Notes under the pieces: model-generated
The model's input: the letters and a program-made list of their open reading frames with translations, nothing else
What the model was told of the DNA's origin: nothing
Database searches by the model: none
Origin: Orenia marismortui DSM 5156
Lineage (GTDB): Bacteria; Bacillota; Halanaerobiia; Halobacteroidales; Halobacteroidaceae
Direction: 5' to 3'
Length of the DNA: 64,000 nucleotides
Assembly (NCBI RefSeq): GCF_000379025.1
Contig: NZ_KB900618.1
Coordinates: 300,640 to 364,639 of the forward strand
In this document: piece by piece, positions 15,302-17,883 of the stretch
How the letters are laid out: each line of letters begins with the position of its first letter
Position numbering within the stretch: the stretch's first letter is position 1
Translations under genes and position numbers: made by a program

Positions 15302-16654
15302 TTACTCTTCCATCTTAGGTAAAATAATATTCAATAGTAAGGCTGTAATAGTCCCTGTAGTAATACCTGATTGGAAGAAAGTCTTCAGCGCTTTTGGTAA
15401 ATGACTTAAAATATCTGGTCTTACTACTACTCCTAAACCTAATCCTAAAGAGATAGCAATAATTAATAAATTTCTTCTAGTTAAATCAGCATCGTGTAAT
15501 ACTTTAATTCCACTAGCAGCAATCATTCCAAACATAACAATTCCTGCTCCTCCTAATACAGGATTAGGCATAATTGCAATTAAAGCACCTAACTTAGGAA
15601 AAACACCTAAAAACATTAAAATAATACCGGCCAAAATAACAACAAACCTACTCCCTACTCCTGTTAAAGGAATGATTCCAACATTCTGACTAAAAGAAGT
15701 ATTAGGACCAGCCCCAAAAACTCCTGCTAACATACTCCCAACTCCATCAGCCATTAATCCTTTAGAAATATCTTCACTTTCTAATTCTTTATTACAGGCT
15801 TCACCAACTGCTAATAAATCACCAACAGTCTCAATACTAGTTACTAAATAAGCAGGTATAAAAGCAAAAAATCCAGTTAAACTAAAAGCGATTCCATACT
15901 TAAAAGGCATAGGTAAATTAATTAAAGCAGCCTCTCTTACAGCAGAAAATTCTAACATTCCCAAAGGATACGCTATAATATATCCAAAGATAGTACCAAT
16001 TAAAATTGAAGCTGAACTCCAAAAACCTTTTGCAAATTGATTTAAGGAGACAATCACTGTTAATACTGCTAAGGTAACACCTATATTCTTTAAACTACCA
16101 TAATCCGCAGCTCCATAACCTCCTGCCGCCCAATCAATTGCTACTGGCAAAACTGTTAATCCAATCAAAGTCACTACACAACCGGTTACAACTGGTGGGA
16201 ATAATCTCCTGATTTTAGGAAAGAACTTACTGATTATCATTTCAATTGGTGCAGCTAGCAAAGTAGCTCCAAAGATACCTGCTAATCCCATAGTGCTTCC
16301 AACTGCTATAGATGGTCCTACAAAAGTAAAATCTGTTCCCATAATACAAGGTAACTTAGCACCTACTTTTCCAAATCCCTTAGCTTGAATAAAAGTAGCT
16401 AAACCAGCCATAAATAAGGCTGTACTAACCAAATATCCCATCTCAACTGCAGATAATCCTAAAACTCCTCCAACTACTAATGGCACAGCAACTATCCCAC
16501 TAAATGCAGCAACAATATGCTGAATAGCCAAAGGAATAGCAAGTTTTAATTCAGGCTTATCATTAATACCATAAGTTAATTTATTATCTTCATATAAATC
16601 TTTATTTCCTTCACTAACAAAATCCTCTTGATAACTTAATGCTTCTTGACCCAT
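15302..16654 (-). CDS. pbuX: NCS2 family uracil/xanthine permease
   Basis: 450 aa with a dozen or more hydrophobic segments. Family motifs include QHIVAAFSGIVAVPLVVGG, IMGTDFTFVGPSIAVGS, the substrate-site SIETVGDLLAVGEA and GAGPNTSFSQNVGII. It is a proton-coupled nucleobase importer of the cytoplasmic membrane. Coupling to xpt and control by the purine riboswitch point to xanthine or guanine as substrate rather than uracil. Start: ATG 16654, directly after GGGAGGAATTAAG; an in-frame TTG 15 nt earlier belongs to the ribosome site. It follows xpt by 69 nt in one operon. Confidence 0.88.
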   Translation of the reverse strand: MGQEALSYQEDFVSEGNKDLYEDNKLTYGINDKPELKLAIPLAIQHIVAAFSGIVAVPLVVGGVLGLSAVEMGYLVSTALFMAGLATFIQAKGFGKVGAKLPCIMGTDFTFVGPSIAVGSTMGLAGIFGATLLAAPIEMIISKFFPKIRRLFPPVVTGCVVTLIGLTVLPVAIDWAAGGYGAADYGSLKNIGVTLAVLTVIVSLNQFAKGFWSSASILIGTIFGYIIAYPLGMLEFSAVREAALINLPMPFKYGIAFSLTGFFAFIPAYLVTSIETVGDLLAVGEACNKELESEDISKGLMADGVGSMLAGVFGAGPNTSFSQNVGIIPLTGVGSRFVVILAGIILMFLGVFPKLGALIAIMPNPVLGGAGIVMFGMIAASGIKVLHDADLTRRNLLIIAISLGLGLGVVVRPDILSHLPKALKTFFQSGITTGTITALLLNIILPKMEE

Positions 16655-16723
16655 CTTAATTCCTCCCATTTTTTGAATAATTAATTTTTAATTAGATTTA
16701 TTAGCTTTAAAACAAAGTTACAA

Positions 16724-17293
16724 TTATAAAAAATTAATTTCATTATCAGCTAAACTATCAATAATAGCTAAAGATTCAACCTTAATCCCCTGTTGGCGTA
16801 ATAATTTTCCTCCAGGCTGAAATCCTTTTTCAATTACAATTCCTATACCAGCTAATTCAGCTTTTGCCTTGTTCACAATTTCTAATAGACCTTGGGAAGC
16901 ATTTCCCATTGCTAGAAAATCATCAATAATTAGTATTTTATCCTCGTTATTTATATAAGTAGAATCTACACTAATATTATAAACCTTATTTTTAGTAAAA
17001 GACTTTACTTCACCTGTATAAACTTTGCTATCCATTGTAGAGGCTTTCTTCTTTTTAGCAAATACTACTGGTACATCTAATTCCAGACCTACCATCAAAG
17101 CCACTGCAATCCCTGATGCCTCAATAGTTAAAATCTTGCTAATCTCTTCTTCTTTAAATCGCTTAGCAAATTCTCTTCCGATCTCCTGCATTAGTCTAGG
17201 ATCTATTTGATGGTTTAAAAAAGAGTCCACTTTTAAAATCTCTTTAGAAACTAACTTCCCATCATCCTTAATTCTTTCTTTCAATAATTCCAT
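16724..17293 (-). CDS. xpt: xanthine phosphoribosyltransferase
   Basis: 189 aa, the standard Xpt length. N terminus MELLKERIKDDGKLVSKEIL, the purine-binding LTIEASGIAVALMVGLELDVPVVFAKK region, and the PRPP loop ILIIDDFLAMGNA are all typical. It converts xanthine and PRPP to XMP in purine salvage. ATG with GGGGAGGG upstream. First gene of xpt-pbuX, preceded by a tandem riboswitch and terminator (17332-17647), so transcription should respond both to guanine and to PRPP, the cosubstrate of this enzyme. Confidence 0.93.
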   Translation of the reverse strand: MELLKERIKDDGKLVSKEILKVDSFLNHQIDPRLMQEIGREFAKRFKEEEISKILTIEASGIAVALMVGLELDVPVVFAKKKKASTMDSKVYTGEVKSFTKNKVYNISVDSTYINNEDKILIIDDFLAMGNASQGLLEIVNKAKAELAGIGIVIEKGFQPGGKLLRQQGIKVESLAIIDSLADNEINFL

Positions 17294-17331
17294 ATCCTTA
17301 CCCTCCCCTTAATATAAAATGCTCATAATAT

Positions 17332-17385
17332 AAAAAACCCAGATAGATAGACTTCACTATAACAAGTGAAACCTATCCATCTGGG
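17332..17385 (-). terminator. riboswitch-controlled terminator upstream of xpt
   Basis: On the minus strand, CCCAGATGGATAG pairs with CTATCTATCTGGG, followed by TTTTTT. An inner extension TTTCACT/AGTGAA uses the same TTTCACT segment (17365-17371) that closes P1 of the PRPP aptamer. Aptamer P1 and terminator are therefore mutually exclusive. Confidence 0.85.
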
Positions 17386-17581
17386 CTTTTCTCCCTCTGG
17401 TGTAATACATTAATGTATTTGTACCGCTTGGACCAGACAACTTAAAAACAATTGATAATTAACAATTTAGAATTGATAATTAAAACCTTAAAAATTTAAA
17501 AATATTATATCTTTATATCTAAATTATCAATTATAGGTTTTCAATTGCTCTTTAGTACGGAACCCTAGGTACACTTTCACT
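17365..17581 (-). ncRNA. PRPP riboswitch aptamer (ykkC class 2b) with large insertion
   Basis: Conserved ykkC blocks are present in order on the minus strand: CTAGGGTTCCG (17558-17568), CTGGTCCAAGCGG (17424-17436), a hairpin around TACATTAATGTA, then CCAGAGGGAGAAAAGCCC (17383-17400). P1 is AGTGAAA (17575-17581) with TTTCACT (17365-17371). The CAAG after TGGTCC and the link to a PRPP-using enzyme fit the PRPP subclass rather than guanidine or ppGpp. About 119 nt (17439-17557) separate the first two blocks where a short hairpin tip is normal. The insert is an AT-rich inverted repeat with three ATTGATAATT-type segments. Confidence 0.82.
17439..17557. repeat. AT-rich inverted repeat inserted in the PRPP aptamer
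   Basis: On the plus strand it contains CAATTGATAATTAACAATTT, then GAATTGATAATTAAAACC, and later AAATTATCAATTATAGG and TTCAATTG. The halves are complementary (AAAACCT with AGGTTTT, GATAATT with AATTATC), so it can fold into one long arm that extends the aptamer hairpin without breaking it. Confidence 0.65.
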
Positions 17582-17647
17582 CGTAGTCAGATAGTTTACG
17601 GCTATCTGGTAGAAACGTCCGAGCCTTATTCTCGACATTATACGAGT
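17579..17647 (-). ncRNA. guanine-class purine riboswitch aptamer
   Basis: P1 is ACTCGTA/TACGAGT. The core includes GTTTCTACC, hairpin P3 AGATAG-CCGTAAA-CTATCT, and GACTA just before the 3' P1 strand. The C in GACTA (not GATTA) is the specificity base for guanine or hypoxanthine over adenine. Its 3' P1 strand shares 3 nt (17579-17581) with the 5' P1 strand of the downstream PRPP aptamer, so folding one should disfavour the other. Ligand-bound guanine aptamer is predicted to favour termination. Confidence 0.9.
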
Positions 17648-17854
17648 ACTAATTCGATATTTATTTTCTTATTAATAAAATAACATACATAAGTTTCTTT
17701 TTCAAGTAAAAGATGATCATTTATAAGATTTTTTGATTTCTAAAAAAAATTCAATACCTTGCTGAACAATTTCGCAAAATTATCATTTTAGCCGTACTTA
17801 TCCATAATCAAGTTCAAAAACCACATAAATAATGCATTCAATCTAAATTTTCTA

Positions 17855-17883
17855 TTGACATGGTTACATATACCATATATAAT
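17855..17883 (+). promoter_or_regulatory. strong sigma-A promoter of the ABC transporter genes
   Basis: TTGACA (17855-17860), 17-bp spacer, TATAAT (17878-17883): both hexamers are consensus. Transcription would begin ~70 nt before the ATP-binding protein gene. Confidence 0.85.

Follow-up and report, generated by a model that had tools for sequence, protein, structure and literature searches.

Which signals reach the xanthine salvage operon xpt-pbuX in Orenia marismortui, and by what route do they enter? In Bacillus subtilis, xpt-pbuX responds to guanine via a riboswitch. The response of the B. subtilis operon to PRPP passes through PurR (PMC8789054, PMC4223553). In the stretch of O. marismortui DNA analysed here (64 kb, the window), an earlier note had placed ahead of xpt-pbuX, on the minus strand, a guanine aptamer directly followed by a ykkC-class aptamer of the PRPP type and one terminator, as in a two-input gate. 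Guanine-PRPP tandems acting as an IMPLY gate were described by Sherlock et al. (2018; PMC5912903), and their targets, as given in the main texts of that paper and of a later review (PMC9481103), are the steps up to IMP, plus codA. We consider it very likely that a guanine-PRPP tandem riboswitch with a single shared terminator controls xpt-pbuX in this organism.

The leader and its operon

On the minus strand, from 17665 to 17332 and read 5' to 3', the leader holds first a guanine aptamer, then one of the ykkC type and finally a single intrinsic terminator, with xpt and then pbuX behind it. The xanthine phosphoribosyltransferase gene (xpt, 16724-17293, minus strand) scored 266 bits with TIGR01744 (cut-off 164) and 281 bits with NF006671, and the xanthine permease gene (pbuX, 15302-16669, minus strand) scored 499.7 bits with TIGR03173 (cut-off 414); with both genes above their NCBIfam cut-offs, the target operon is by sequence the one that had been proposed. 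The order xpt-pbuX is the same in two sister genomes, and the closest xpt among the named species genomes is that of Orenia metallireducens (77% identical). A pattern scan gave a probable promoter at 17677-17705 on the minus strand (TTGAAA, 17 nt, TATTTT, with an extended -10 TG), and a CTTG(A/C)AAAAGAAACTTATGTATGTTATTTTATT-like block of the promoter region upstream of xpt is kept in all three Orenia genomes. On the plus strand, a perfect TTGACA-17-TATAAT promoter at 17855-17883 precedes a sulfonate/taurine-type ABC transporter operon.

The guanine aptamer (17579-17647, minus strand) was recovered by the Purine covariance model RF00167 at 17564-17665 with 88 bits (E 1e-16, cut-off 37), the sole gathering-level RNA family match that Rfam gave in the window. 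It has the three-way junction of RF00167, a P1 stem formed by ACUCGUA (17647-17641) and UACGAGU (17585-17579), and a C as specificity base (17586), which is the guanine type. The genome has four more single guanine aptamers, which lie ahead of guaA, guaB and two pbuG-type permease genes (G000:C4:285890-292648, G000:C1:1264773-1264873).

Class of the second aptamer

The earlier note had named Rfam models as the check for both aptamers, and that check succeeded for the purine half and failed for the ykkC half: Rfam 15 returned no PRPP family on the window and only a sub-threshold match to Guanidine-I (RF00442; 22.6 bits, cut-off 63, E 0.08). The low ykkC score is explained by the lack of a PRPP family from Rfam 15 and by an AT-rich insert of about 120 nt in P1b. 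Weak Rfam matches to trpB, mir-743, mir-880 and SNORA55 at 17309-17418 lie on the terminator hairpin and were taken as chance. Our own covariance model, R1, was made from 19 tandem aptamers of genomes outside Orenia only, with the published fold imposed. R1 matched 17364-17581 (minus strand) with 67.6 bits (E 2.7e-16, E-values being rough by the tool's own statement) as its sole match in the window, and the P0/P1/P2/P3 fold and the conserved boxes are present there. The fold of the model is borne out by its alignment, in which 97.7% of cells are paired vs 30-49% in shifted versions and six pairs are altered on both sides, a covariation that none of 500 shuffles equalled. The R1 score is lower at xpt than at the purD copy (87.3 bits), in part from the correction for AT-rich composition.

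The PRPP aptamer (ykkC subtype 2b) spans 17365-17581 on the minus strand and comprises P0, P1 (17572-17568 with 17425-17421), P1a, P1b, P2 and P3, the last pairing 17400-17398 with 17379-17377 and 17395-17393 with 17385-17383. The helix that the earlier note called the PRPP P1 is P0 in the nomenclature of PMC6031431, with AGUGAAA (17581-17575) as the 5' strand and UUUCACU (17371-17365) as the 3' strand. The T. mathranii numbering was transferred via the primers printed in PMC6031431 (5' GTGAAAGTGTACC, 3' CGGGAGGATAGGTTTCACTCGTA), and A5 (17575), G6 (17574), G48, C49, C75, C77, C78, G96, A101, A103, G104 and G105 land on the correct letters. The window agrees with the invariant set at A5, G6, G48, C75, C77, C78, G96, A103, G104 and G105, and position 49 is a pyrimidine (C49, 17426) and position 101 a purine. 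In the column table, 17381 corresponds to G96, by which PRPP aptamers are told apart from ppGpp aptamers; among 93 aligned R1 matches, all 85 purine-gene relatives have G in this column, and all 5 ilvE-linked ones, which are of the ppGpp type, have A.

A sensor of ppGpp or of guanidine in this place is highly improbable. The sole Rfam match is indeed to Guanidine-I, and ppGpp aptamers have nearly the same consensus (PMC6031431), but the ppGpp riboswitch (ykkC 2a) has no G at 96, the base found here at 17381, and guanidine-I has A where the window has C at 17426, apart from the score of 22.6 bits vs the 63 needed. The guanine aptamer in tandem and the purine target also speak against both. As G96, C49 and all the other contact bases are present, the class by sequence is PRPP, not ppGpp and not guanidine, in line with the earlier note, and by homology the aptamer would bind PRPP. 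Its 5' tail GUGAAAGUGUACC and 3' GGAUAGGUUUCACU are the same as those of the T. mathranii PRPP aptamer 6CK5 (PMC6031431), with which it also shares every contact base and a P0 exclusive with the guanine P1, whereas its P1b is much longer and it has A97 instead of G97 (A97 occurs in 21/85 relatives). As to labels, PRPP-type aptamers at L304 6045-6150, L306 6597-6701, L307 6250-6357, L159, L161 and L230 exceed the RF00442 gathering score, and such aptamers would be labelled Guanidine-I.

Shared strands and proposed logic

The intrinsic terminator (17332-17385, minus strand) consists of a 21-bp hairpin at 17385-17338 and a U run at 17337-17332, and the pattern scan for terminator-like elements gave two matches, both on this one stem, vs 0.4 expected. 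No terminator stands between the aptamers, so that this single hairpin with its TTTTTT serves both, as had been claimed. Sequence and folding place UUUCACU (17365-17371), the 3' strand of P0, within the 5' arm of the terminator, which also takes up 17383-17385 of P3; at the other end of the aptamer, 17579-17581 are common to the guanine P1 and the 5' strand of P0, and these two helices are mutually exclusive. Both overlaps, the 3 nt between the stems and TTTCACT, are exactly those that the earlier note had described, and all of its coordinates that we checked stand. The two P1 stems are separated by 6 nt (17573-17578), within the 5-7 nt published for the tandems (PMC5912903). Adjacency, spacing, shared strands and a single terminator thus make up by sequence the layout of a guanine-PRPP tandem and of a two-input gate. 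Exclusion of P0 and the guanine P1 was already proposed in PMC6031431, and the stem overlap is that published mechanism, with nothing peculiar to the window site. Like the tandem of Sherlock et al., the leader has the guanine aptamer directly upstream of ykkC-2b, the 6 nt between the P1 stems and one terminator overlapping the PRPP aptamer; unlike it, it has a repeat hairpin of about 120 nt in P1b, an A79-U98 pair instead of G-C in P3, and xpt-pbuX as target in place of the IMP-synthesis gene that is usual, though not essential, for a tandem.

Folding energies were computed with ViennaRNA, whose simple energy models take no account of tertiary contacts or ligands. For the full leader, the guanine P1 with the terminator gave -98.4 kcal/mol, and -77.7 kcal/mol was obtained with P0 and P3 enforced; before the second arm of the terminator is made, the respective values are -72.0 for the guanine P1 and -68.6 for P0 with P3, and the gap of 3.4 kcal/mol would be small enough for a ligand to tip the choice.

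The anatomy of the leader, its conserved ligand-contact nucleotides, the exclusive pairings and the target genes are direct observations, and ligand binding, the direction of control and the IMPLY logic would be those of the homologous RNAs tested from B. megaterium, H. modesticaldum, F. ignava and T. mathranii. With guanine bound and no PRPP, the guanine P1 would be locked and 17579-17581 held, such that P0 would be hindered, the 3' strands of P0 and P3 would enter the terminator and transcription would end ahead of xpt. With PRPP bound, P0 and P3 would be locked and the guanine P1 broken, withholding the strands from the terminator, and xanthine uptake and PRPP-consuming salvage would be on despite guanine. 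The off state would thus be reached only with guanine and without PRPP. Both ligands might instead act with another logic, as stems of 7 bp that overlap by 3 nt could coexist in part and let the two ligands work almost independently; a fold with P0 and the inner four pairs of the guanine P1 comes to -67.2 kcal/mol, only 1.4 above the best P0 fold. We hold this unlikely, as the tested tandems with 5-7 nt showed antagonistic structural changes (PMC5912903) and the spacing here is 6.

The xpt leaders of Orenia

The tandem layout before xpt, with pbuX next, is found in all three Orenia genomes compared, and R1 gave 67.6 bits in the window, 86.2 in a sister genome (G001), where the aptamer is intact, and 17.5 in O. 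metallireducens. In the leader of the latter (L040 2630-2940, the same locus as L121), the guanine aptamer and the terminator are intact and the PRPP half is decayed, with C49A, C75U, the loss of A76, G105C and GGG15-17 changed to AAA. This leader looks like a two-input gate cut to one input, and the decay implies that at least one species can do without a PRPP input at xpt. The pair A79-U98 is present in the three xpt leaders, vs G79 in 81/85 and C98 in 83/85 relatives, and reads as a compensatory switch of one P3 pair from G-C to A-U, inherited within the genus.

We considered whether only the guanine half works in the window, the PRPP aptamer being an inactive relic that came with a copied purD leader and is now being lost. 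The broken PRPP half of O. metallireducens, next to a retained guanine aptamer and terminator, points in this direction, as do the purB leaders of the three genomes, which retain only a PRPP-like 5' box after the guanine aptamer. Nevertheless, in the window and in G001 all ligand-contact bases are intact, P3 has been maintained by the compensatory change and the pairs of P1a, P1 and P0 are all in place, which makes a relic quite unlikely. In the purB leaders themselves (L137 from 6074, L130 from 4968, and L131 from 4943 on the reverse strand), the guanine aptamer is followed by the lone 5' box (GGGGAAGTTTACTTAGGGAAC in G001), probably what remains of an older tandem, and then by a terminator.

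Probable exchange with the purD tandem

A second tandem stands before purD in each of the three Orenia genomes, and the only intact tandems of the window genome are those before purD and xpt. The guanine aptamers of the xpt leaders are 89-96% identical to one another and 72-78% to those of the purD leaders, and the region from P2 through P3 to the terminator is 90% identical between the two intact xpt leaders and 66-70% to the purD leaders. In the middle, which comprises the 5' PRPP box, P1b and the 3' strand of P1, the window xpt leader has 93% identity with the purD leader found in the same genome vs 70% with its orthologue in G001. At the informative sites of the four leaders, 20 in the flanks group by orthology and 0 by genome, and in the middle 1 and 12 do so, respectively (Fisher p 4e-8, a value that shows the mosaic and not the number of exchanges, as sites in one tract are not independent events). 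The simplest reading is that the middle segment, about 150 nt long (window 17421-17576, minus strand, vs purD tandem L137 2417-2565), was copied between the xpt and purD gates by gene conversion or an equivalent process. The xpt and purD gates of this genome are related, and the middle part of the xpt gate would have been exchanged with the purD one in the window lineage.

Most of this segment is the extended P1b hairpin (17435-17558, minus strand), an AT-rich palindromic insert of a dispersed repeat (AATTGATAATT...AATTATCAATTGTTAATTATCAATTG) that folds into one long hairpin at -26.7 kcal/mol. The insert has 54 matching stretches in the genome, the best after itself being the nearly identical insert of the purD tandem, and the roughly 50 other copies of the repeat may have helped the exchange. 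Independent insertion of the repeat at each locus was rejected as the sole account, since grouping by genome extends to the short stretches at the edges of the insert that are not part of the repeat. In other genomes of the family, this spot in P1b is occupied by different repeat hairpins (L133, L135, L136).

Targets of the tandems in Bacillota

R1 matches occurred in 237 of 398 sampled Bacillota genomes, and the downstream genes were examined for 110 of the best matches, a choice biased towards aptamers resembling the model; gene names were assigned from similarity to Orenia proteins or from inspection of the translation. Taking the nearest match, these 110 comprised de novo purine targets (purE 49, purD 12, purB 8, purQ/purL 3, purK 1, purC 1), fhs (1), pbuG-type purine permeases (26), BMP-type transporters of the purine nucleoside family (4) and ilvE (5). 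Purine-uptake genes thus stand behind 30 of the 105 PRPP loci in the survey, and 4 of these 30 are in operons ending in xpt. The permease loci are the 26 among L152-L261 (e.g., L155, L162, L164, L177), where the PRPP aptamers are mostly in tandem with guanine aptamers. The BMP-type operons headed by a tandem, with xpt as the fifth gene, come from four genomes of two families (G140 and G279; G174 and G205; L304-L307), their xpt genes being above the xpt cut-off in the genome search and one of them rechecked.

None of the 110 best R1 matches has xpt directly behind the aptamer, and among 80 xpt loci of named species genomes the Orenia one alone has an R1 match; a purine aptamer precedes xpt at 11 of 20 tested loci, including that of O. 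metallireducens. The sister Orenia xpt leaders and the four xpt-ending operons elsewhere show that the window genome is not alone in having a tandem ahead of xpt. The earlier note had set this salvage target against tandems known from purine biosynthesis genes; xpt-pbuX stood as the target, and the contrast did not hold in full, as tandems also precede permeases, nucleoside-type ABC transporters and xpt-ending operons elsewhere. The main texts of PMC5912903 and of the 2022 review PMC9481103 do not name xpt, pbuX or pbuG as tandem targets. The leader is a well-supported new member of a known tandem class, with an unusually clear record of exchange and decay. The use of such a tandem on the xpt-pbuX salvage operon, together with its partial copying and decay among sisters, is not described in the literature searched, as far as main texts give the targets.

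Implications for purine control in Orenia

The operon is the same as in B. subtilis and so are the two signals, guanine and PRPP; unlike in B. subtilis, the PRPP signal in Orenia would enter via RNA. A PurR homologue is encoded in Orenia (365 bits, cut-off 259), and paired TTCG/CGAA PurBox-like motifs precede purD and purB in the three Orenia genomes. Before xpt, a crude test for four letters at the conserved position found no such pair in the three genomes. Given the homologue and the absence of the motif pair, we hypothesise that the PRPP input, provided by PurR in B. subtilis, may come from the tandem RNA in Orenia.

In the published account, as far as its main text goes, guanine-PRPP gates serve de novo synthesis to IMP, and AMP is favoured over GMP under stress. 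The product of the xpt-pbuX route is XMP, from which GMP is made, and the route consumes PRPP. Together with the permease and transporter cases, this operon calls for a wider rule in which PRPP supply licenses both synthesis and salvage. For Orenia we tentatively suggest, as a possibility short of an even chance, that an RNA sensor of PRPP replaces PurR on xpt-pbuX and that such gates are born and lost by lineage, their PRPP half being renewed from purD or left to decay. With one input kept, exchanged or lost depending on the sister species, the genus offers a ready natural experiment on the evolution of a two-input RNA gate.
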